A stretch of 32,056 nt of DNA from Candidatus Zixiibacteriota bacterium (GTDB lineage Bacteria; Zixibacteria; MSB-5A5; UBA10806; 4484-95). Each line of letters begins with the position of its first letter. The stretch's first letter is position 1. The DNA is taken from assembly GCA_012517955.1 (NCBI GenBank), contig JAAYTW010000057.1, positions 1-32,056 of the forward strand, given 5' to 3'. A program made the translations under genes and the position numbers. The notes beneath the pieces were generated by a model. That model searched no databases. It saw nothing but the letters and a program-made list of their open reading frames with translations, and was not told where the DNA came from. Below, piece by piece: positions 3,484 to 18,164 of this stretch.

Positions 3484-3723
3484 GTGTTAATCCTGACAAG
3501 GAAGTTGGGTGAATCGATTACAATAGGTGATAATATAAAAATCACCGTTTTGGGTATTAATGGAAAACAGGTGAAATTGGGAATCCTGGCTCCCGATAAG
3601 GTATCGGTTCATAGAGAAGAAATTTACAATAGAATACAGGAAGAAAATAAACAGGCTTCACTGGCTTTGAAAGAAGATTTGCTTGAGGTGGCCAGAATAC
3701 TGAAAGCGAGAAAGTCGAAATAA
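3484..3723 (+). CDS. csrA: Carbon storage regulator / translational regulator CsrA
   Basis: GTG start; [55 protein letters not shown] is canonical CsrA. Confidence 0.98.
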
Positions 3724-5703: not shown

Positions 5704-6156
5704 TTGCCCCATTTTAACACGGTCAAGTTCGGTAAGATCCAATACAGCGAATCCGATGTCATTACATTCGTGAGAGCAATTCTTGGTTTTGAAGATTTGC
5801 GAAGGTACGTGATAATTACGCGTCCCGAATCGGATCCTTTCAAATGGCTGCAATCTCTGGAGGACCCTAATGTCGCTTTCGTGATTGTCGAACCGCGCCT
5901 GATACTTGATAATTACATTGTGGAATTAAGCCAGCATGATATCAAGCAACTGCATGGCTCCCAGCAGCTAAACGACTATAAGATATTCGTCATAATGACC
6001 GTCCCTAAAGGGCATCCCGAAAAAATATCCGTCAATCTTCAGGGGCCGTTGATAATAAATATAAAAAACATGAAAGCCATCCAGATGGTTTTGAATAATC
6101 CAGATTACGATATCCGTTTCAGTCTTTTTAAAAATCAGCCAACGGTAACGACATGA
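5704..6156 (+). CDS. fliW: Flagellar assembly factor FliW
   Basis: VITFVRAILGFEDLRRYVII...DPFKWLQSLEDPNVAFVIVEPRLI...YKIFVIMTVPKG...SVNLQGPLIINIKNMKAIQMVLNNPDYDIRFSL is typical FliW; TTG start likely. Confidence 0.95.
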   Translation: MPHFNTVKFGKIQYSESDVITFVRAILGFEDLRRYVIITRPESDPFKWLQSLEDPNVAFVIVEPRLILDNYIVELSQHDIKQLHGSQQLNDYKIFVIMTVPKGHPEKISVNLQGPLIINIKNMKAIQMVLNNPDYDIRFSLFKNQPTVTT

Positions 6157-6917: not shown

Positions 6918-8585
6918 ATGACGAATGATGATGTAATGTTTGATGAGAATTATTCCGTTCTCGAAGATGCTTTCAAAATGGTTGAACATGGCGAATATGA
7001 AATCGCCGCCGCCATGCTCGAAAAATATCTACAATCATCTCCAGGCGATATCGACGCTATTCATTTGATGGGCGCAACCCAAGCTAAGATGGGGAATATC
7101 GATAGGGCGGAGAGCCTTTTTAAAAAAGAGCTGGAGATAAATCCCAACCGCCCCGATGCTTTTTATAATCTGGGCCTGATTCATATACAACAAAACCGCA
7201 TCGCCGAGGCCATAAACGATTACGAAAATGTTATCAAATTGAAACCGGCAGATAATCAGGCTTTGAACGATTTGGGCGTGCTATATATGTCGCAGGGGGA
7301 CAAGGTCAATGGAGAACGACTGTTATCTCAGGCTCTAAAATCTGACCCGACATATAAAGACGCGTTTTTAAATCTATTTGAAATACTATGGAAGCAGAAT
7401 AGATATAATGAGGCGGTCGAACACGTTTATGATTTCCTTACCGCGCTTGTTCCCCAAAGTGCGTCTCAACAGCCGCCGGTGGATTCGAACCCAACCGTCG
7501 AGCAACCAGCGCCATCAATCACGATTAAGCACAAAGCGCCGGCGATAATTAAATTAAGCCAGTCCGAAAAGCTTGATATTTTCGAGAAACACGTTCCCGA
7601 AAGCCTTCGTGCCAAAAAAACCGGAATGAATATGGCTATTATCGCCGATTTCAATATAGCCGGGCAACTGACGCAATTGTTTAGATTGATAAACGAAAAG
7701 ACGATTCATAGAGCGAGATGTATAATCGTCCACGATGATTACTTATCTTACGACAAAGACCTGGTGTTGTCTGATAATAAACCGGATGATTTCGAAACCG
7801 CTTTGAAGATAATCGAAAACGCCGATTTCTATCATATCGGTCGTTTCCCGGTCAAAATTGGAGACCTTGACCTGGCCGATTATCTGCGGCCGGATAACGC
7901 GGTGATTCAGTATTTTGGCAGCGATTTACGCAATGACGGATTTAATATCTATAACTGGCATAAATCAAACCGCATAGTCGGTCTATCCGCCTGGGATTAC
8001 ACAATGCTAAAAGACTCGCCGTTTTTCTACCATATCAACATGATGTTCGATGCCTCCCGCGTTAAGCGGGCTCCTTATCCCGAGGGAACGCTTAAAATCG
8101 TCCATCCAACTACTAATAGAAATATAAAGAAAACCGAATTGTTTTTAAACACGATTGACAGACTTCGCCGCGAAGGATGCGATATTGAACCGGTTCTAAT
8201 TGAGCATAAAACCAATCAGGAATGTCTTGATTTGAAATCACAGGCGCATTTGACTTATGACCAAATTTCGGTCGGCATTTATGGGGTCTCGGCGATTGAA
8301 TCGATGGCGGCAGGGCATGTCGTTTTTGGCGGAATCTCAAATTTCGCTGCCAGTTATCATCCAGATAACCCGATAGTCTGGGTTACCGAAAACAGCCTGG
8401 CCCAGCGAATAAAATATTTTGTGGAACATCGCGAGCAGATTCCAGATCGCGGTCAGGCCGGCATAGACTGGGTAAAGATGCATCATGACCCCATGAAAAT
8501 ACTCTGTCAGCATCTTTATATGTACGATTTTATTAAGCATGGCCATCGTTTTTTAGAGGAATCCGATGCCCAATTGATGAGGTAA
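6918..8585 (+). CDS. TPR protein fused to a glycosyltransferase-like (GT-B-type) domain
   Basis: N-terminal TPR units (e.g. RPDAFYNLGLIHIQQNRIAEAINDYENVIKLKPADNQALNDLGVLYMSQGD); C-terminal region with glycosyltransferase-like features (IIADFNIAGQLTQLFRLIN..., ...YDQISVGIYGVSAIESMAAGHVVFGGIS). Confidence 0.72.
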   Translation: MTNDDVMFDENYSVLEDAFKMVEHGEYEIAAAMLEKYLQSSPGDIDAIHLMGATQAKMGNIDRAESLFKKELEINPNRPDAFYNLGLIHIQQNRIAEAINDYENVIKLKPADNQALNDLGVLYMSQGDKVNGERLLSQALKSDPTYKDAFLNLFEILWKQNRYNEAVEHVYDFLTALVPQSASQQPPVDSNPTVEQPAPSITIKHKAPAIIKLSQSEKLDIFEKHVPESLRAKKTGMNMAIIADFNIAGQLTQLFRLINEKTIHRARCIIVHDDYLSYDKDLVLSDNKPDDFETALKIIENADFYHIGRFPVKIGDLDLADYLRPDNAVIQYFGSDLRNDGFNIYNWHKSNRIVGLSAWDYTMLKDSPFFYHINMMFDASRVKRAPYPEGTLKIVHPTTNRNIKKTELFLNTIDRLRREGCDIEPVLIEHKTNQECLDLKSQAHLTYDQISVGIYGVSAIESMAAGHVVFGGISNFAASYHPDNPIVWVTENSLAQRIKYFVEHREQIPDRGQAGIDWVKMHHDPMKILCQHLYMYDFIKHGHRFLEESDAQLMR

Positions 8586-8589
8586 CGAT

Positions 8590-9582
8590 ATGATAGAGAA
8601 TAAAAAAATATTCATTACGGGAGGCGCCGGATTTATCGGAACCTCCATCGTCGGCCGATTGGTGGATGCCAATGAGATTATTATTTATGATAATCTGTCT
8701 CGTAACAGCCTTAAAGATGCCTATTTTAAAAATCATCATAACCTGAAAGTAATTAGAGGCGATATCCTTGATTATGAGAACCTGGCGCGTCAAATGAAAG
8801 GCGCGGATATAATAATCCATCTGGCGGCCGTGGCTGGAATCGATACCGTGATTAAAAGCCCGATTACCACAATGAAAGTCAATTTGCTTGGCACATACAA
8901 CGTCCTGGAGGCGGCCAGCGCCTTGTCCAAACTCGATCGCTTAGTCGAATTTTCAACATCCGAAGTATTCGGCTCCTACGCTTTCAGGTCAGAAGAAAAT
9001 GACAGCACAGCCTTGGGTGCCGTCGGCAACGCTCGATGGACTTACGCCGTAAGCAAATTGGCGGGGGAGCATCTTGCTTACAGCTATTATTCCGAACGCC
9101 AATTGCCGACGGTATCAATTCGCCCATTTAATATTTATGGGCCCGGTCAGGTCGGCGAAGGCGCGATACATCATTTTATAACGCGCGCCTTACGAAACCA
9201 GTTTTTGACCATACACGGCGACGGCGACCAAATTCGTTCTTGGTGCTATATCGATGATTTGCTCGATGGGGTGATGCTGGCGCTGGAAAAACCCGAAGCC
9301 GTCGGTAATAGTTTCAATATCGGCAATCCGCGCGGCACAATAACTATCAACGGTCTGGCGATGGCCGTTGTGAGGGTGACCTATTCAAAATCAAAAATCG
9401 TCTATGTTCCCAAACATTTTGCTGATGTCGAATTGCGCATTCCTAATATCGACAAAGCGAAACGCCTTCTTGGTTACGAACCGAAAATAGACCTTGAGGA
9501 AGGGCTTAGACGAACGGCCACTTGGTACTATGGAAAAATCAACGGTAATAAAGCTAATAAGGCCGCGACTTTCTCAATCTGA
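8590..9582 (+). CDS. NAD-dependent epimerase/dehydratase (extended SDR, nucleotide-sugar)
   Basis: FITGGAGFIGTSIVGRL Rossmann motif, YAVSKLAGEHLAYSYY (YxxxK), RPFNIYGPGQVGEGAIHHFITRAL. Confidence 0.93.
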   Translation: MIENKKIFITGGAGFIGTSIVGRLVDANEIIIYDNLSRNSLKDAYFKNHHNLKVIRGDILDYENLARQMKGADIIIHLAAVAGIDTVIKSPITTMKVNLLGTYNVLEAASALSKLDRLVEFSTSEVFGSYAFRSEENDSTALGAVGNARWTYAVSKLAGEHLAYSYYSERQLPTVSIRPFNIYGPGQVGEGAIHHFITRALRNQFLTIHGDGDQIRSWCYIDDLLDGVMLALEKPEAVGNSFNIGNPRGTITINGLAMAVVRVTYSKSKIVYVPKHFADVELRIPNIDKAKRLLGYEPKIDLEEGLRRTATWYYGKINGNKANKAATFSI

Positions 9583-10654
9583 GATTCAGGCGGTCAATCA
9601 GGTCCTTGAAACGGGTATGTTGGTATCGGGACCTGTGGTTCAGCGATTTGAAAACAGCCTGGCCGAATATCTTGGCGTGAAACACGTAATCTGCGTGTCA
9701 TCGGGTACGGCCGCTTTACATCTTTCGTTGCTGGCCGCGGGTATAAAACCGCAAGATGAAGTTATTGTACCCGCTTTCACTTTTCCGGCCACCGCTAATG
9801 TAGTCGAAAATGTGGGCGCCGTTCCCATCTTTGTCGATTGTGGGCTTGACGGTCTTAACCTTGATGTTAATGATATAGAGCGTCATATCGGCCCGCAAAC
9901 AAGGGCAATCATGCCGGTACACGGACTCGGCTTTCCGGCCGATATGGATATTATTAATGATATAGCGGCGAAATATAACCTTACCGTGATAGAGGATGCC
10001 GCTTGTGCCCTTGGGTCACGTTATAAGAATAGACTTTGCGGGACGATAGGTGATATTGGCGCGTTTAGTTTTCACCCGCGGAAACTATTAACGACCGGCG
10101 AGGGAGGGGCGATAGTCGTTAAAGATGAGATTACGGCAAGTTTAGTGAAAAGCCTGCGTAATCACGGCTATGATGACGGCGATTATCGTTATGCCGGATA
10201 TAATTATCGTATGACCGATTTTCAGGCCGCTATGGGTTTGTCGCAATTAGATTCATACGCGGAATATCTTGAGGAAAGAAAGAAACTTGCTCATGAACTT
10301 GCCCTTTTACTGGGAAGGTTTCATTGGCTGGAGGTAATCAAACCTGAAATCGGAACCGAGCCGAATTGCCAGACTTTTGTCGTCAGATTAGCCGAGGATA
10401 TCGACAGAAAATCGCTGCTTAATTTCTTGGCCTCAAGAAATATCGAAGCCACCATTGGTACGTATTGCGTGCCGATGACTCATTATTATCGGGTCCGTTA
10501 TGGCTATCGGGCTGAGGAGTTTCCAAAATCCTATGATTCTTATAATCGCCTGGTATCGCTACCGCTTTATCACGGTATGAAACCGATTGAAATGGTTATC
10601 ATATTCGAGGCCCTTAAAGACTTTACGATAGAAATGGTAAAGGAACTGGTCTGA
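9530..10654 (+). CDS. DegT/DnrJ/EryC1/StrS family PLP-dependent sugar aminotransferase
   Basis: VSSGTAALHLSLLAAGIKPQDEVIVPAFTFPATANVV, VIEDAACALGSRYKNRLCGTIGDIGAFSFHPRKLLTTGEGGAIV (PLP-Lys), NYRMTDFQAAMGLSQLD. Start chosen at ATG 9530 to align with the family N-terminus; the ORF track extends to 9494. Confidence 0.94.
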   Translation: MEKSTVIKLIRPRLSQSEIQAVNQVLETGMLVSGPVVQRFENSLAEYLGVKHVICVSSGTAALHLSLLAAGIKPQDEVIVPAFTFPATANVVENVGAVPIFVDCGLDGLNLDVNDIERHIGPQTRAIMPVHGLGFPADMDIINDIAAKYNLTVIEDAACALGSRYKNRLCGTIGDIGAFSFHPRKLLTTGEGGAIVVKDEITASLVKSLRNHGYDDGDYRYAGYNYRMTDFQAAMGLSQLDSYAEYLEERKKLAHELALLLGRFHWLEVIKPEIGTEPNCQTFVVRLAEDIDRKSLLNFLASRNIEATIGTYCVPMTHYYRVRYGYRAEEFPKSYDSYNRLVSLPLYHGMKPIEMVIIFEALKDFTIEMVKELV

Positions 10655-11586
10655 TGCATAAAATAGCGATTGCCGGAAACACGTCTTTAGCATATTACTG
10701 CGCCCAAAAATTGTGTCGAAGTGGAGCGCCGGTAGATATCATATTCTATCCGAAAAAGGGCAACGCCGATTTGTACGATGCGGTGGATTTTTCGCCGCTG
10801 GCGGGCGAATTCAGAATTTGTCGGGAGGGGTTACCTCTTTCAAAAGACAAAATGGATTTTCCCCAGATTGATATCTTGATAAAGCTTGAATGGCCGGAAA
10901 AGCTCAGAATTCCGATTGTCCCTAACTTGGGGACTTTAAGCGTCAACCTTAATGGGCAGTATGCCGGCGGTCAAATACTTGATGTCGCGGCCGCTCTCTA
11001 TTTAGGAAACTCGGAATTTTCCTTCCAATTATTGGGGAAAAGTAAGAGCGGGTCCGAATCCGTTATCGGTCAATCAATGATTACTATCAACATTTTTGAC
11101 GATGTCAGGTCGCTGAAATCGAAAGCGGCCGTTATTACCGCCCGAATGCTTCTCGAGAATATTGCGGCGCTCAATCAATCGGGGTCATGGATTGTGGCTC
11201 CAGATTCGCCCAGTATATTAAAAACCGCCATCAATAGGACTATCGATTGGAACAAAGATTCTATTTCGATTCACAATCAAGTGCGTTCACTGACTCACCC
11301 AGGGCAAGGCGCAATCACCGAATGCGAAGGCGCCCGACTTTATGTTTGGCACGGCCATCCTTATGACGTTTCGGGCAACATCTATGGCGCGGCCCAACCC
11401 GGCACTATCCTCGATAGCACCGAAGAATTGGGCGTAGTTGTGCAAACCGCAAAGGGCGCTTTCCTCGTGACGAAAATACAACCAGCGGGCGCGCCCGAAT
11501 TGCCGGCCTGGATCTGGGCCTCCGATTATCATATCCAAACCGGCGATATTTTTACTTGGCCGGAGGAAATACTGATTAACGTGTGA
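10654..11586 (+). CDS. Methionyl-tRNA formyltransferase-like (Fmt/ArnA fold) protein, catalytic motif degenerate
   Basis: C-term IHNQVRSLTHPGQGAITECEGARLYVWHGHPYD...PGTILDSTEELGVVVQTAKGAFLVTKIQPAG resembles the Fmt C-terminal domain; N-domain LGTLSVNLNGQYAGGQILDVAAALYLG aligns with the NxHxSLLPxYRG region. Confidence 0.7.
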   Translation: MHKIAIAGNTSLAYYCAQKLCRSGAPVDIIFYPKKGNADLYDAVDFSPLAGEFRICREGLPLSKDKMDFPQIDILIKLEWPEKLRIPIVPNLGTLSVNLNGQYAGGQILDVAAALYLGNSEFSFQLLGKSKSGSESVIGQSMITINIFDDVRSLKSKAAVITARMLLENIAALNQSGSWIVAPDSPSILKTAINRTIDWNKDSISIHNQVRSLTHPGQGAITECEGARLYVWHGHPYDVSGNIYGAAQPGTILDSTEELGVVVQTAKGAFLVTKIQPAGAPELPAWIWASDYHIQTGDIFTWPEEILINV

Positions 11587-11592
11587 GCTTAT

Positions 11593-11802
11593 ATGCGTAA
11601 AAACAGAAAATCTATTAGAATTAAAACATTTCCTGAGCTAACGCAATTTATTCGAGGACAGGAGTATCAAGACACTATATTTCCGGAATCGCAAATCTCG
11701 ATTCCTGGAGTCGGTAGGCTTAGGACTGGCACGTATCATCAGAGCTCCCACGATACCAATGTGCCCAAAAGGCCTAAGCCTGAATTAATAAATCAAAAAT
11801 AA
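11593..11802 (+). CDS. Small hypothetical protein (69 aa)
   Basis: ORF fits between two convincingly coding genes on the same strand; no recognisable domain. Confidence 0.4.
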   Translation: MRKNRKSIRIKTFPELTQFIRGQEYQDTIFPESQISIPGVGRLRTGTYHQSSHDTNVPKRPKPELINQK

Positions 11803-11833
11803 CAACTGTTGGTTTTAATAAATGGATTTGTCT

Positions 11834-12370
11834 ATGAGCAAATGGAAATCACATGGTCCGGGTTTGGAGTTTCTTTCTAAATTGGCCTGGATAGGAAAGA
11901 ATGTTATCATCGAAGATGGAGTACGGATATTTTTCCCCGAAAAAGTCGAAATCGGCGATGATGTATATATCGGCCATAATACTATTTTGAAGGGATATTT
12001 CGATCAACGTCTCATAATTGGAAGCGGCGCCTGGATTGGTCCGCAATGTTTTATTTATGCCGCCGGCGGGATTACAATCGGTCAGAATGTCGGAATTGGT
12101 CCAGGAGTGACGATATTAACATCGGCCCACAAGGACCCACAGGACGATGGGCCTATTCTGCATCAGCCGATTGCTTTTGCTCCCGTTATTCTTGAAGACG
12201 GCTGCGATATCGGCGCCCGGACTACTATTCTGAAAGGTGTTCGCATCGGCAAGGCGGCGCAAATCGGCGCGGGTGCCGTTGTCACTCGCGATATCCCGGA
12301 TTTCGCGGTGGCCGCTGGAGTGCCGGCCAAAGTAATACGTTTCCATCATACTCAAAAGGCGCATGTATAA
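11834..12370 (+). CDS. Left-handed beta-helix (hexapeptide repeat) acyltransferase, probable sugar O/N-acetyltransferase
   Basis: Hexapeptide repeats: VIIEDGVRIFFPEKVEIGDDVYIGHNTILKG...IGSGAWIGPQCFIYAAGGITIGQNVGIGPGVTILTSAHK...IGKAAQIGAGAVVTRDIPDFAVAAGVPAKVIRFH. Start at 11822 also possible. Confidence 0.92.
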   Translation: MSKWKSHGPGLEFLSKLAWIGKNVIIEDGVRIFFPEKVEIGDDVYIGHNTILKGYFDQRLIIGSGAWIGPQCFIYAAGGITIGQNVGIGPGVTILTSAHKDPQDDGPILHQPIAFAPVILEDGCDIGARTTILKGVRIGKAAQIGAGAVVTRDIPDFAVAAGVPAKVIRFHHTQKAHV

Positions 12371-12890
12371 AGATAATTATCGCAAATCGAAGGAATCAGA
12401 TCAAAAATCTGCCGGTAAGATAAAGCCGCTCAGCAAATATGGCTATGCCGATTTCATGCGATTGGCGGCCAATAGCCATAAGGCCGGTAATTATGGCCGG
12501 GCCGTCGATAATTGCCGGCTTGCTGTCGAGATGGCCGAGCGCGCGAAAGATATTAAAAGCATGGCGGACGCGTATGATTTGTGGATTAACGCTCTCATGG
12601 TCGAAAAGAAATATCAAGCAATCAAAAAACTATGCTGCGAGGCCAGGACCAAACTCGGAAATTACCTCGATCTGGTATATTACGAATTTCTTGTAGCCCG
12701 TAATTCCAATGATTCATCAATTGCCAGGAAATTGGCCGCCGAATTTCTTGATATGAAAAGCAAGACAATTAAAAAGAAAAATAGCTGGGGTATCACCAAA
12801 ATTGAATTTGCCGGTGAAATTCAAGAATATTTGAACAATCTGCCTGAACATGAAGAGGATGTCAAAAATAGTATGGGAATGGAAAAATAA
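12363..12890 (+). CDS. Small TPR-like helical protein, paralogous to the N-terminus of the next gene
   Basis: YADFMRLAANSHKAGNYGRAVDNCRLAVEMAE...LWINALMVEKKYQAIKKLCCEARTKLGNYLDLVYYEF aligns with the next protein (see findings). Confidence 0.7.
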   Translation: MYKDNYRKSKESDQKSAGKIKPLSKYGYADFMRLAANSHKAGNYGRAVDNCRLAVEMAERAKDIKSMADAYDLWINALMVEKKYQAIKKLCCEARTKLGNYLDLVYYEFLVARNSNDSSIARKLAAEFLDMKSKTIKKKNSWGITKIEFAGEIQEYLNNLPEHEEDVKNSMGMEK

Positions 12891-12891
12891 T

Positions 12892-15693
12892 ATGTCAAAG
12901 AATACAATGAATAAATCCAAACAAAGCCATGCGGTGAATCATGTCGATTATCTCCGGCGGGCCCAGGAATCATTTGCCCGCGATAATTTTAAGCGGGCCG
13001 CATCCTTCTGTAAAAAGGCGACTGAATTTGAAAGCGGCATCGCCAGACATCAACTGGCACAGATTTATTTTTTGTGGGTTTTATCGCTCATGAAGCTGGA
13101 GGACTACAAAGCTATCGATAAATTAATCCCCAGGGCTGAAAACGCGTTGGGAAAATACCTTGACCTGGCTTTCATGAAAGTAATGGCCGCTTATGGCGAA
13201 CAAAATTATGAACGCGTTATCGCTCTTGTAGACGAATATCAGGCTCTTTATCGTTCAATCGGCGAATCGGAGGACAAATCTCTTTGCCAGAGCAGGGATT
13301 ATATTGATGAGGTTCTCTGGTTGGGCGCCGAATCGGCCGGCAAGCTTTTAAATATCGACAAGGCGGCGGCTCTGATGAAAGAATCGCTTTCTTTTCGGCC
13401 CGACAATCACCCTCATCGCGTGCAATTGGCGACGATGCTGGCCAAAGATGGCCGCGACGAGGAGGCCCTGGCTATTATCGATGAGGGAATCAATCTCTAT
13501 CCCGATGTAATCGCGCTCCAAAACGCCAAGGGATTTATTTATGGCGAAATAGAGAGATACGAAGAAGCCGAAAAGTATTTAAATGATTTGCTCAATCGAT
13601 ATCCCAACGACACCGACGCCCTAAACAACTTGGGTGTTATTTATGATAAGCAGGGATACTATGATCGAGCCAAAAGATATTTTAGGCTTGCTCTCGAAAA
13701 AGAACCCGGTAATCAAACCGCTCGGAACAATCTCGAATATCTCGAAAACACGATTGATGAAACGCCTCAGAAAATCTCAGTGTGTATGATTGTGAAAAAT
13801 GAAGAGAAATTTCTTCCGGGATGTCTCGCGTCGATAAAAGGTCTGGCCGATGAAATCATAGTGGTTGATACCGGTTCCACCGATCGTACTATGGAAATCG
13901 CCCGTGAATATGGCGCTAAAATCTATGAACATCCCTGGCAAAACGATTTCTCGTTGCACCGCAATCAATCGATAGGCTACGCCACCGGCGATTGGATTTT
14001 GATTATTGATGCCGACGAGGAACTTGATCCCAAAGAACACGAAGTCATTCGGTCAGCCGTAAAACGTAAAGATATCGATTCGATATCGTTTGTGGTCTAT
14101 AACAAAATCCAATCCGGGAGAATCGGCTTCTTGAATTCGCACCGCCTGTTTCGCAATCATAAGGGATTCAAGTATTCAGGCATCGTTCATAATCAACTTG
14201 AGGTGACAGGCAAGACTCTAGTCAGTCATCTAAAAATATTCCACCACGGCTATGGTTTATCTGACGAACAGATGAAGAAAAAAGCCGAACGCACCGAAAA
14301 ACTGCTTTTGCAGCAACTTAAAGAAAACCCCGATGCTATATTTCCGCATTTTAATCTGGCGCAGATATATCGGGGAATGGGCGAACCGGCCAAAAGCCTT
14401 GAACATGCCTTGATAACCATAGAAAAACTTGGACCAAACGACCTTGATAGGCGTCATGTGTATGTGATGTCGCTCGATCAGGCTGGTTGCGCGTATATCG
14501 GACTGGGGCGATTCGATGACGCCGAAACGATTTTCAAGCGAGCGTTGGAGTATAAAAGCGATTACCTTGATCCGATGTTCAATCTTGGTTATATGTATAT
14601 GCGGCAGCAACGGTATGATGATGCCGAAGCTATATTCCTTCGCTACTTGAAAACAAGGGAGAGCTATTCGCCCCATAGGGAATGGTTGGGGCTTATTCTT
14701 AACAACTTGAACAGCCAATTCGCTGTTTACTATGGTTTGGGTTTGATTTATTTTTTACGCTCTCAAATCGATACCGCGTTAGCCGTTTTGCAAAAGGCTC
14801 TTGAATACACCGAAGACTTCGAATATCTGCATCATCTGCTTGCTCGTTGTTATCGCCAAAAAGGGCAATTTGCGAAGATTCTTGAACATTGTTCTAAGGC
14901 CATACAATATGGGCACGAGGATGGCGAGATACGTTTATTGGAAGGGGAAGCCTATCTTAATCTTGGGGATGCCGGTTCGGCGCAACATAGTTTCGAAAGG
15001 GCCTTGGAAATTCAACCCAATTTCGAGGAGGCGAAACTTGGGCTTGTCGGAGTGGCTTCTCTTAAAAATAACCCGGCGGAAACCCTGAAAACGATTGACG
15101 AATTTTTAAAATCGTCTCCGTTTTCGCCGCAAGGATTGGCCACGCGGGGTGACCTCCTGTTTGAACTTGGTGATACTTATGGAGCTAAAAAAAGCTACCT
15201 GGAATCGGCCAAGCATGCCCCATACGATTACAAGGTCATAAATAATCTTGGAAACTGCTACCTGAAAGAAAAAAACTTCGCGTCCGCCGAATATTGTTAT
15301 CTCAGCGCCCTTCAGAAAAATCGCAATTTTCTCCCCGGATATCGTAATCTCGCGATTGCCTTGATTAATCAAAATCGAATGACGGATGCCTTAGATTATC
15401 TCGAATTTTACCTTTCCAAGAACCCCAACGACGCTGATATCCATGCGACGATTGCCGATATTTACTATCACTCGAAAAAATACGGCGAGGCGTTGAAATA
15501 CTACGAAAAATATCTAATGTTTTACCCGCAAAACTTGGACGTGATTGTTCGAATCGCCGATTGCTATTTCAATATGAATAAATTTCAGTCGGCTATGATG
15601 GGCTACAAAGTCGTGCTTGAGAAGAACCCTGATCATAAAATCGCCAGACAGCGGTTGGACGAATTGAAGGGGTTTATGCAACCCCATGCCTGA
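12892..15693 (+). CDS. TPR - GT2 glycosyltransferase - TPR multidomain protein
   Basis: Central GT2 domain ISVCMIVKNEEKFLPGCLASIKGLADEIIVVDTGSTDRTMEIAREYGAKIYEHPWQNDFSLHRNQSIGYATGDWILIIDADEEL flanked by many TPR units. Start ATG 12892 preferred over 12850, which lies inside the upstream ORF. Confidence 0.92.
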   Translation: MSKNTMNKSKQSHAVNHVDYLRRAQESFARDNFKRAASFCKKATEFESGIARHQLAQIYFLWVLSLMKLEDYKAIDKLIPRAENALGKYLDLAFMKVMAAYGEQNYERVIALVDEYQALYRSIGESEDKSLCQSRDYIDEVLWLGAESAGKLLNIDKAAALMKESLSFRPDNHPHRVQLATMLAKDGRDEEALAIIDEGINLYPDVIALQNAKGFIYGEIERYEEAEKYLNDLLNRYPNDTDALNNLGVIYDKQGYYDRAKRYFRLALEKEPGNQTARNNLEYLENTIDETPQKISVCMIVKNEEKFLPGCLASIKGLADEIIVVDTGSTDRTMEIAREYGAKIYEHPWQNDFSLHRNQSIGYATGDWILIIDADEELDPKEHEVIRSAVKRKDIDSISFVVYNKIQSGRIGFLNSHRLFRNHKGFKYSGIVHNQLEVTGKTLVSHLKIFHHGYGLSDEQMKKKAERTEKLLLQQLKENPDAIFPHFNLAQIYRGMGEPAKSLEHALITIEKLGPNDLDRRHVYVMSLDQAGCAYIGLGRFDDAETIFKRALEYKSDYLDPMFNLGYMYMRQQRYDDAEAIFLRYLKTRESYSPHREWLGLILNNLNSQFAVYYGLGLIYFLRSQIDTALAVLQKALEYTEDFEYLHHLLARCYRQKGQFAKILEHCSKAIQYGHEDGEIRLLEGEAYLNLGDAGSAQHSFERALEIQPNFEEAKLGLVGVASLKNNPAETLKTIDEFLKSSPFSPQGLATRGDLLFELGDTYGAKKSYLESAKHAPYDYKVINNLGNCYLKEKNFASAEYCYLSALQKNRNFLPGYRNLAIALINQNRMTDALDYLEFYLSKNPNDADIHATIADIYYHSKKYGEALKYYEKYLMFYPQNLDVIVRIADCYFNMNKFQSAMMGYKVVLEKNPDHKIARQRLDELKGFMQPHA

Positions 15694-15732: not shown

Positions 15733-15759
15733 TAATGATTTTGGGGCTTTTGCCGAAGT
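15733..15759 (+). promoter_or_regulatory. Candidate sigma-28 (FliA/SigD) promoter for flagellin
   Basis: TAATGATT (15733-15740) - 11 nt - GCCGAAGT (15752-15759), compared with consensus TAAAGTTT-N11-GCCGATAA: 6/8 and 5/8 matches with exact spacing, about 150 nt upstream of the flagellin ATG. Confidence 0.6.
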
Positions 15760-15798
15760 ATATACTGAAAACTTCATAGTCGTAAAATGCAGTATAAA

Positions 15799-15900
15799 AC
15801 AAGGAGGTGGGTTAACACAATTCATCCGCAGTAACCAAATAGTAGGATGAGTTATTATCAACTTGCAGACAACGGATGTCTGCATTCACTTTCAAGGAGG
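15799..15900 (+). promoter_or_regulatory. Candidate CsrA-binding leader of flagellin mRNA (several GGA motifs incl. hairpin-loop GGA and SD-overlapping GGA)
   Basis: ACAAGGAGGT at 15799-15808; perfect stem TGCAGACA/TGTCTGCA (15864-15871/15877-15884) with loop ACGGA (15872-15876); SD AAGGAGG at 15894-15900. Confidence 0.6.
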
Positions 15901-15908
15901 AATTCCAA

Positions 15909-18164
15909 ATGGCATTAAGAATTAACCACAACATCTCGGCTTTGGACGCCTGGCGCAATTTGACAAACACAACGCGCAAAATGGGCGTCACGATGGAAAA
16001 GTTGTCTTCAGGTTATCGGGTTAACAGAGCTGCCGATGATCCGGCGGGTCTAGTTATATCCGAGCAGTTCAGAGCGCAGATTGCCGGCTTGAATCGCGCG
16101 GTCCAGAATTCAGAAGGGTCAATCAACATGATTCAGACCGCCGAAGGCGCTCTAAACGAAATCAATAACCTGTTGGTTTCGATGCGTGAACTGGCAATCC
16201 ATGCCTCTAACGAAGGTTTCAACGATACGGACCAGTTAGCAGCTGACCAGGCCGAAATTACCAACGCTATCGCCACAATCACTCGTATTGCCAACAACAC
16301 CCAGTTTGGAACCAAGAAACTGCTCGATGGTTCAGCAGCCAACGTGGCCGCAATCACGACCAGCAATACGACCAGAATGACGTTGACCGATTCTCAGTTG
16401 AAAGCCGGCGTCCATAGCGTAACGGCCGTCAAGTTGACCGAATCGACCGCCACGGTTGATACGACCAGCTTTGGATTGTCATCTCCATCCAGTCCATATA
16501 ATTTGTCTGACGGCGTCCATAACATCGACGTCATCCAGGCTTCCGCCGGCGCCATGAAGATAGGTAACGCCATCAGCGCTCTTGATGCATGGGGCAATGG
16601 TATCTCAATCACCGCCACCGCCGCTTCAATCCGCGAAGCTTATGTGCGCGCGACAACCGGTATGACCACGGTTGCCAACAACGTGCAGCACACGATTAGC
16701 TTCCAGATTAACTATCAAGAAGCGGGTGGAAACCCGGTCGGTATGCAGACCTTGACGATTCGTACCGATGCCGTCGCTTCATCGGCTTTGGCGGCAAATA
16801 TCGTTTCGAAGTTAAATGATGCGATAAACGCCAATACTTATCTTGCCGGTAAAGTCATCGCTACTGTCGATGATAATGCTGGTGCCGCCGATGCGATTCG
16901 CATCCGTTCGACCGGAACCGGCACTCAGTACTCAATCGCCGTTGGCAGCGTAACCGCCACCAACGCCAGTATCAATACTGCGTTGAGCGGGCTTGCTAAT
17001 CAGAACGATCGCGGTCGTTCGGGTAACCAAATATCGATTACCGCCCAGTTCGCGTCCAGCTCAACCCTGGTCGACGCTTTCACAAGAACCAGGACATTCG
17101 CGATTGGCACCGGTACATTCACGACTCTGTCAGCTTTAGCAGCCACGATAAATGCTAAGTTGACATTGGATTCGATATTCGGTACGTACAACGATACCAC
17201 TGCTGGCGAAGCCCAAAAAGTGTATGCTACAGTGGTAACGGCCGGCGGCCTTTCCTACCTGAAGTTCTACACGTCAGACGAGGGCTCCAAGTTCTCGTTG
17301 AAGATAAACGAAACGGGTGGAACGGCCACGTCGCTGAATACAGCTCTTGGATTGACCGTGGACACGATTGCCAATACGGGTACGGACGCTATCGTTCGTT
17401 TTGATGGATATAACAACACCATAAATGACGTTCGTTATTTCTATACGGCGTCGTTGTACAACGAAAGCGTGAACCTGTATACCTCAGATGATACCGAATC
17501 TCGTGGTTCGGTTACTTTCAATCGCGCCATGGCTCAACAGAACGGCGGTATTCTGGTTGGCAATATGCTTCTTACCGTTAAAGCCAGAACCTACAGCGTT
17601 CAGCTGGATGGTGGAGCCGCGACGGTTGTTACCGGCGGACGTAATGCCGTCGTATTCAACTCCCAGAGAGATCAATCAATATCGGTGAATCTCTCGCTGA
17701 AATCGGAAGGCGGGACCGAACAGCTTTATGTCACCGATAGATCGCTGGTGTTCCAGATTGGCGCTAATGTCGGTCAAACAGCAAAAATCGGTCTGGACAA
17801 CCTCTCGGCTGATTATCTCGGTCGCGGTTTATCCAATAACCGTTTCGCAAGCCTGGCGGAGATTGATGTCACCACAGCCGCCGGCGCTCAGGATGCGCAG
17901 TCGGTTATCGATAAGGCCATTGCTGAAGTGACCAATATCCGCGGTAAACTCGGGTCGTTCCAGAAGAATACTCTGGAATCCAACCTGACCAACCTGCGGA
18001 TTGCTGCTCAGAACCTGACATCATCTGAATCAACAATCCGCGATACTGACATGGCCAAGGAGATGTCGGAATTCGTCAGGTATCAAATCCTGATGCAGGC
18101 CGGCACCGCCATGTTGGCTCAAGGTAACCAGGCGCCGCAGGTCGTCTTGTCTTTGTTCCAATAG
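15909..18164 (+). CDS. fliC: Flagellin (large, 751 aa from ATG 15909)
   Basis: MALRINHNISALDAWRNLTNTTRKMGVTMEKLSSGYRVNRAADDPAGLVISEQFRAQIAGLNRAVQNSEGSINMIQTAEGALNEINNLL... and C-term NLRIAAQNLTSSESTIRDTDMAKEMSEFVRYQILMQAGTAMLAQGNQAPQVVLSLF. AAGGAGG is 8 nt upstream of ATG 15909; the ORF-track start at 15876 falls in the leader hairpin. Confidence 0.97.
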   Translation: MALRINHNISALDAWRNLTNTTRKMGVTMEKLSSGYRVNRAADDPAGLVISEQFRAQIAGLNRAVQNSEGSINMIQTAEGALNEINNLLVSMRELAIHASNEGFNDTDQLAADQAEITNAIATITRIANNTQFGTKKLLDGSAANVAAITTSNTTRMTLTDSQLKAGVHSVTAVKLTESTATVDTTSFGLSSPSSPYNLSDGVHNIDVIQASAGAMKIGNAISALDAWGNGISITATAASIREAYVRATTGMTTVANNVQHTISFQINYQEAGGNPVGMQTLTIRTDAVASSALAANIVSKLNDAINANTYLAGKVIATVDDNAGAADAIRIRSTGTGTQYSIAVGSVTATNASINTALSGLANQNDRGRSGNQISITAQFASSSTLVDAFTRTRTFAIGTGTFTTLSALAATINAKLTLDSIFGTYNDTTAGEAQKVYATVVTAGGLSYLKFYTSDEGSKFSLKINETGGTATSLNTALGLTVDTIANTGTDAIVRFDGYNNTINDVRYFYTASLYNESVNLYTSDDTESRGSVTFNRAMAQQNGGILVGNMLLTVKARTYSVQLDGGAATVVTGGRNAVVFNSQRDQSISVNLSLKSEGGTEQLYVTDRSLVFQIGANVGQTAKIGLDNLSADYLGRGLSNNRFASLAEIDVTTAAGAQDAQSVIDKAIAEVTNIRGKLGSFQKNTLESNLTNLRIAAQNLTSSESTIRDTDMAKEMSEFVRYQILMQAGTAMLAQGNQAPQVVLSLFQ

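Follow-up and report, generated by a model that had tools for sequence, protein, structure and literature searches.

Flagellin, csrA and fliW in the gene cluster

The window analysed here, a 32,056-nt stretch of Candidatus Zixiibacteriota DNA, carries on its plus strand the gene for a major flagellin of 751 aa at 15909..18164 (PF00669, 1.5e-35; PF00700, 5.3e-22). By consensus scan, a sigma-28 promoter, TAATGATT-N11-GCCGAAGT, was predicted at 15733..15759 on the same strand, and transcription is expected to start near 15766. The 5' leader of the flagellin mRNA, delimited by this prediction and by the flagellin start codon, would then be about 143 nt long (15766..15908, plus strand). A predicted promoter is also located upstream of most relatives' leaders, where TAAAGTTT-N11-GCCGATTA-like elements occur at the matching place, 76% of them scoring above the 95th percentile of shuffles, and the same 11-nt spacer is found in most of 75 relatives' leaders. 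With the predicted start near 15766, all the sites described below would be within the mRNA. A transcription start downstream of the leader hairpin had been named beforehand as an observation that would speak against regulation by CsrA; the predicted start lies upstream of every site.

Upstream of flagellin the gene order is flgK-csrA-flgL-fliW, and the placing of csrA and fliW in this cluster by the preliminary description was confirmed by matches to PF02599 and PF02623. The csrA gene (3484..3723, plus strand), of which no second copy was found in the genome, encodes a 79-aa protein with a C-terminal extension (PF02599, 1.9e-26, 92 bits). In E. coli CsrA, the RNA-binding residues are L4, V40, V42 and R44, and all four are present in the translation of the window's csrA. 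Contact with FliW has been mapped in C. jejuni CsrA to V51/N55 (PMC7829508); the window's CsrA carries I51/N55 in addition to its extended C-terminus, and its residues 2-75 align with the FliW-bound CsrA 5dmb_D. The fliW gene (5704..6156, plus strand) encodes 150 aa (PF02623, 3.6e-37; 2.4e-17 to FliW of PDB 5dmb/5dmd/5jak). Between fliW and flagellin, the stretch from 6918 to 15693 encodes TPR proteins, a sugar epimerase, a DegT aminotransferase, a formyltransferase-domain protein, a hexapeptide transferase and a TPR-glycosyltransferase, and is likely a flagellin glycosylation cluster.

CsrA was detected in 57 of 58 related genomes and FliW in 52 of the 58, and both genes are present in all 34 genomes with this major flagellin. 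The argument from co-occurrence is weakened because 13 of 18 relatives without a Flagellin_N match also retain fliW together with csrA, some of these genomes being more than 90% complete (G008, G010, G014, G016, G017, G019, G025, G030, G031, G041, G046, G050 and G057; for example L133, L134 and L135). In those genomes, CsrA and FliW may serve a function unrelated to flagellin.

The proximal GGA hairpin and its covariation

Re-reading of the bases reproduced all coordinates given before for the leader elements, base for base. The proximal hairpin, TGCAGACA-ACGGA-TGTCTGCA at 15864..15884 (plus strand), consists of an 8-bp stem and a loop exposing GGA at 15874-15876, and is the main predicted CsrA site. 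It is followed by the Shine-Dalgarno (SD) sequence AAGGAGG at 15894-15900 and by the flagellin ATG at 15909. The distance from hairpin to SD, previously put at about 20 nt, had to be corrected to 9 nt after the hairpin end. An in-frame ATG within the hairpin (15876) was rejected as the flagellin start since the extension is not kept in the relatives L003-L005. Among perfect stems of at least 7 bp with GGA in the loop, this hairpin stands alone on both strands of the whole 32-kb window, the chance expectation on the shuffled plus strand being 0.3 (at least 7 bp) or 0.1 (at least 8 bp); within 160 nt upstream of 27 other gene starts inspected in the window, no GGA-loop stem longer than 5 bp was found. 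The suggested folding of the leader gave a mixed outcome: the hairpin is near certain, with predicted pairing probabilities of 0.87-1.00 for the inner seven pairs and a loop GGA wholly unpaired, but over its full length the leader folds unexceptionally, barely better than shuffles (z = -1.68; 14 of 200 shuffles equally good). Hairpins selected by CsrA mostly contain four or fewer contiguous base pairs (PMC7652899), and the stem at 15864-15884 exceeds this usual length, which counts against the CsrA reading.

Conservation, the check proposed for this hairpin, was examined in 75 distinct Zixibacteria leaders of orthologous flagellin genes, taken from the 58 related genomes and a species-level genome collection. 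In 93% of the leaders, against 38% in shuffles, a GGA lies 28-42 nt ahead of the start codon, and a strict Watson-Crick stem of at least 5 bp surrounds it in 40% against 0.7%; between -43 and -69, in contrast, GGA is underrepresented (32% versus 60% in shuffles). When G-U pairs were allowed and a stem of at least 4 bp was required, a GGA hairpin at -28 to -42 was identified in 57 of the 75 leaders. These 57 hairpins are built from 40 different stem sequences, and 56 of them display the loop ANGGAN, the loop recognised by CsrA/RsmE (PMC7652899). Within the window's family the stems TGCAGACA/TGTCTGCA, CAAACA/TGTTTG, GCAAACA/TGTTTGC and CAGACA/TGTCTG all enclose ANGGA, and hairpins of other families include GGGT-AAGGAA-ACCC, GTCGGGC-ATGGATC-GCCTGAC and ATCGGATA-CGGAT-TATCCGAT.

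RNAalifold predicted no pairs on a 68-row alignment, probably due to loop lengths that differ between families, and the named stem was counted directly in place of a consensus structure. Over 67 distinct rows, 70 double-changed cells were observed against 37 expected from shuffles, with a covariation score of 0.396 against 0.243 (none of 500 shuffles as high). The score was best at the unslid register and lower in all six slid registers, and on the flagellin tree at least 24 switches from one Watson-Crick pair to another were counted over the six stem pairs. Hairpin and loop GGA are thus conserved and covarying among relatives, and on the sequence evidence the proximal site is maintained as structured RNA.

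The same comparison bears on two explanations other than CsrA. Lying behind a promoter, the perfect 8-bp arms with their 5-bp spacer could be an operator bound as DNA by a transcription factor, with no RNA element at all; an operator, however, would preserve its arms and leave the spacer free, and this is contradicted because the relatives keep the loop (ANGGAN in 56 of 57, over 40 stems) while the arms vary freely with compensation. The loop is, moreover, strand-specific, and we regard an operator as highly improbable. That the hairpin acts as an intrinsic terminator or attenuator in front of flagellin appears just as implausible. A terminator scan did flag the hairpin, which has 5 T in the 8 nt past its stem, but chance alone would yield two such matches over that stretch, and in the relatives the 8 nt behind the stem contain 2.0 T on average, with 5 T reached in only 5%. 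The tails in the relatives are T-poor, and the combination of a GC-rich stem with a kept U run was not found.

No qualifying hairpin was detected in 18 of the 75 leaders, and four (L061, L067, L093 and L159) have no hairpin at this place. In a small clade (L080, L156 and L157) the hairpin (GGGATAAGGTAATCCC) is retained with the loop AAGGT, GGT replacing GGA, a natural loss of the GGA motif in one clade. When hairpin and SD were combined in a covariance model, it matched 30 places in the 58 genomes, 29 of them the start of this major flagellin; as these are mostly training genomes, the result shows mainly that nothing else in those genomes resembles the hairpin and SD. Upstream of the script-assigned starts of 10 paralogous flagellins (about 260-290 aa, one in the window's genome), no GGA hairpin was found. 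Locus L103 and the Hydrogenedentota locus L106 carry a CGGC-AAGGAC-GCCG hairpin 37-41 nt before the flagellin start, at a similar distance from the SD, which suggests that the module reaches beyond Zixibacteria. No Rfam family matched on five leader loci or in the other Rfam searches made.

SD spacing, distal site and middle elements

The SD, in its context CAAGGAGGAA (15893..15902, plus strand; GGA at 15896-15898), is the second predicted CsrA site. From the loop GGA to the SD GGA the distance is 22 nt, and across the Zixibacteria leaders it is 18-27 nt. A CsrA dimer bridges two sites over a range of 10-63 nt with an optimum above 18 nt (PMC7652899), and this spacing would therefore suit bridging by a single dimer. 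The flagellin leader thus contains at least two GGA sites at bridging distance, one of them on the SD. The sequence CA(A/C)GGAGGA at the SD is invariant in 68 of 68 aligned leaders. The SD context CAAGGAGGA also precedes gap in the same genome, and it is no proof of CsrA binding because gap carries it; for this reason the context TCAAGGAGGA was dropped as a CsrA-specific feature. The gap gene (G000:C282:24603-24661, L121) lies directly behind a phosphofructokinase gene, and with its TCAAGGAGGAAT context is possibly a further CsrA target or merely carries a strong SD.

The distal site ACAAGGAGGT is located at 15799..15808 (plus strand; GGA at 15803-15805). Its reported match of 9/10 to the CsrA SELEX core ACARGGAUGU was reproduced; as a CsrA site it stands less firmly, for it equally resembles an extended complement of the anti-SD. 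All 4 genomes in the window's family retain AAGGAGGTG/A between -99 and -106, and an AAGGAGG-like distal element was detected in 55 of the 75 leaders against 15% in shuffles. The distal GGA is predicted to be paired, and at 71 nt from the loop GGA it is outside the bridging range of 10-63 nt. A leader peptide behind this SD-like element was rejected, since only 1 of 60 such elements is followed by ATG, where 14% would be expected; the small ORFs of the window leader were likewise discarded, being not conserved in relatives.

The distal element leaves room for another explanation, in which the leader acts without CsrA as an element for ribosome loading or mRNA stability, its hairpins stabilising an abundant flagellin mRNA and AAGGAGGTG serving as a standby site for ribosomes. 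In its favour, AAGGAGGTG matches the anti-SD over a greater length than the real SD of flagellin, and the scarcity of ATG behind elements of this type points the same way. The short second flagellin of the same genome (about 259 aa; G000:C139:1217-1636, L123; other paralogues L124-L132), which has no upstream GGA hairpin, has as its SD ACAAGGAGGTG, the very sequence of the distal site in the leader of the main flagellin, and this identity of AAGGAGGTG with the SD of a paralogue also fits ribosome loading. The ANGGAN loops, the SD spacing of 18-27 nt and the extra upstream GGA hairpins are, however, left unexplained, and we consider such an element unlikely as an account of the whole leader. 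Ribosome loading could be the role of the distal site alone, with CsrA using the remainder. The distal AAGGAGGTG is accordingly listed here as a candidate for either a third CsrA site or a ribosome standby or decoy site.

Between the distal site and the hairpin, the arms ATTCATCC (15820-15827) and GGATGAGT (15845-15852) form a predicted helix at 15820..15852 (plus strand) with pair probabilities of 0.95-1.00. The earlier proposal of this pairing is strongly backed by the predicted fold, but no counterpart was seen in same-family relatives, and the helix would bury its own GGA at 15845-15847. It is specific to the window, and was rejected as a general part of the leader on account of its absence from those relatives. 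A middle motif, ACA(U)NGGANGU, is present in 51 of the 75 leaders; most close relatives of the window are without it. The suggestion of three rather than two sites agrees with the presence of distal AAGGAGGTG/A, hairpin and SD in 4 of 4 genomes of the window's family. Other families of this leader class have more than three, including additional upstream GGA hairpins.

Predicted control of flagellin by CsrA and FliW

The computations here cover the sites with their conservation, covariation and spacing, the match to a promoter, and the occurrence of CsrA and FliW with their key residues. Taken with what is established in Bacillus and Campylobacter, these results make it highly probable, in our judgement, that the flagellin leader is repressed by CsrA and relieved by FliW, a CsrA dimer bridging two GGA sites. 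The CsrA-FliW-flagellin partner switch proposed in the preliminary description is in this respect supported by the conserved sites, the covariation and the predicted upstream start. CsrA binding, repression and relief, as inferred from Bacillus and Campylobacter, would proceed as follows. The flagellin mRNA would begin at the sigma-28 promoter with its leader of about 143 nt, and one CsrA dimer would dock on the proximal loop GGA, span the 22 nt to the SD GGA and, so bridged, block ribosome binding. During filament growth, flagellin secretion would free FliW, which would bind the C-terminal helix of CsrA (I51/N55) and so release the mRNA; when flagellin builds up inside the cell, it would trap FliW, and CsrA would repress anew. 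The distal AAGGAGGTG would most likely recruit a second CsrA dimer or aid in loading the first.

At its core the window leader resembles that of C. jejuni flaA, which is under CsrA-FliW control and has a 45-nt leader with two ANGGA stem-loops, one at the ribosome-binding site, and a GGA spacing of 21 nt against 22 nt here (PMC4894983). Compensatory changes among relatives and, as predicted here, transcription by sigma-28 and FliW as the CsrA antagonist are further features in common (PMC4894983). The flaA leader is, however, the shorter one, since most Zixibacteria leaders of this class are roughly 130-230 nt, three to four times its length, and these have a conserved AAGGAGG at the distal position, joined in other families by extra GGA hairpins. 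B. subtilis hag, in the accounts of it consulted, likewise has a CsrA site on the SD and one upstream, with FliW as antagonist (Yakhnin 2007, Mukherjee 2011; via PMC7652899, PMC6529632); as so described it has two sites, whereas a third conserved candidate is present here. Both flaA and hag are set beside the window leader by description. By this likeness, the leader appears to be a longer variant, with more sites, of the known CsrA-FliW arrangement, new for an uncultured phylum.

Several GGA hairpins per RNA are also a feature of the CsrB/RsmZ sponge RNAs and of multi-site CsrA leaders; unlike the sponge RNAs, the present element is the leader of an mRNA and runs up to an SD, and for CsrB no RF00018 match was found in the genome. 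It is conceivable, though we think it rather doubtful, that the leader is a multi-site CsrA platform (distal AAGGAGG, the ACAUNGGANGU site, ANGGAN hairpin and SD) which both represses flagellin and titrates CsrA from other flagellar mRNAs, replacing the role of sponge RNAs.

Control of flagellin by CsrA and FliW, worked out in Bacillus and Campylobacter, would hereby reach an uncultured phylum, the evidence being covariation of base pairs instead of motif matches. A new RNA family could be seeded from these 75 leaders, which also form a natural series for studying the number of CsrA sites that a flagellin mRNA needs and whether the mRNA itself buffers CsrA. With such a maintained GGA hairpin just ahead of the SD, the Zixibacteria very probably throttle flagellin production with a CsrA-FliW switch of the kind known from those two genera.
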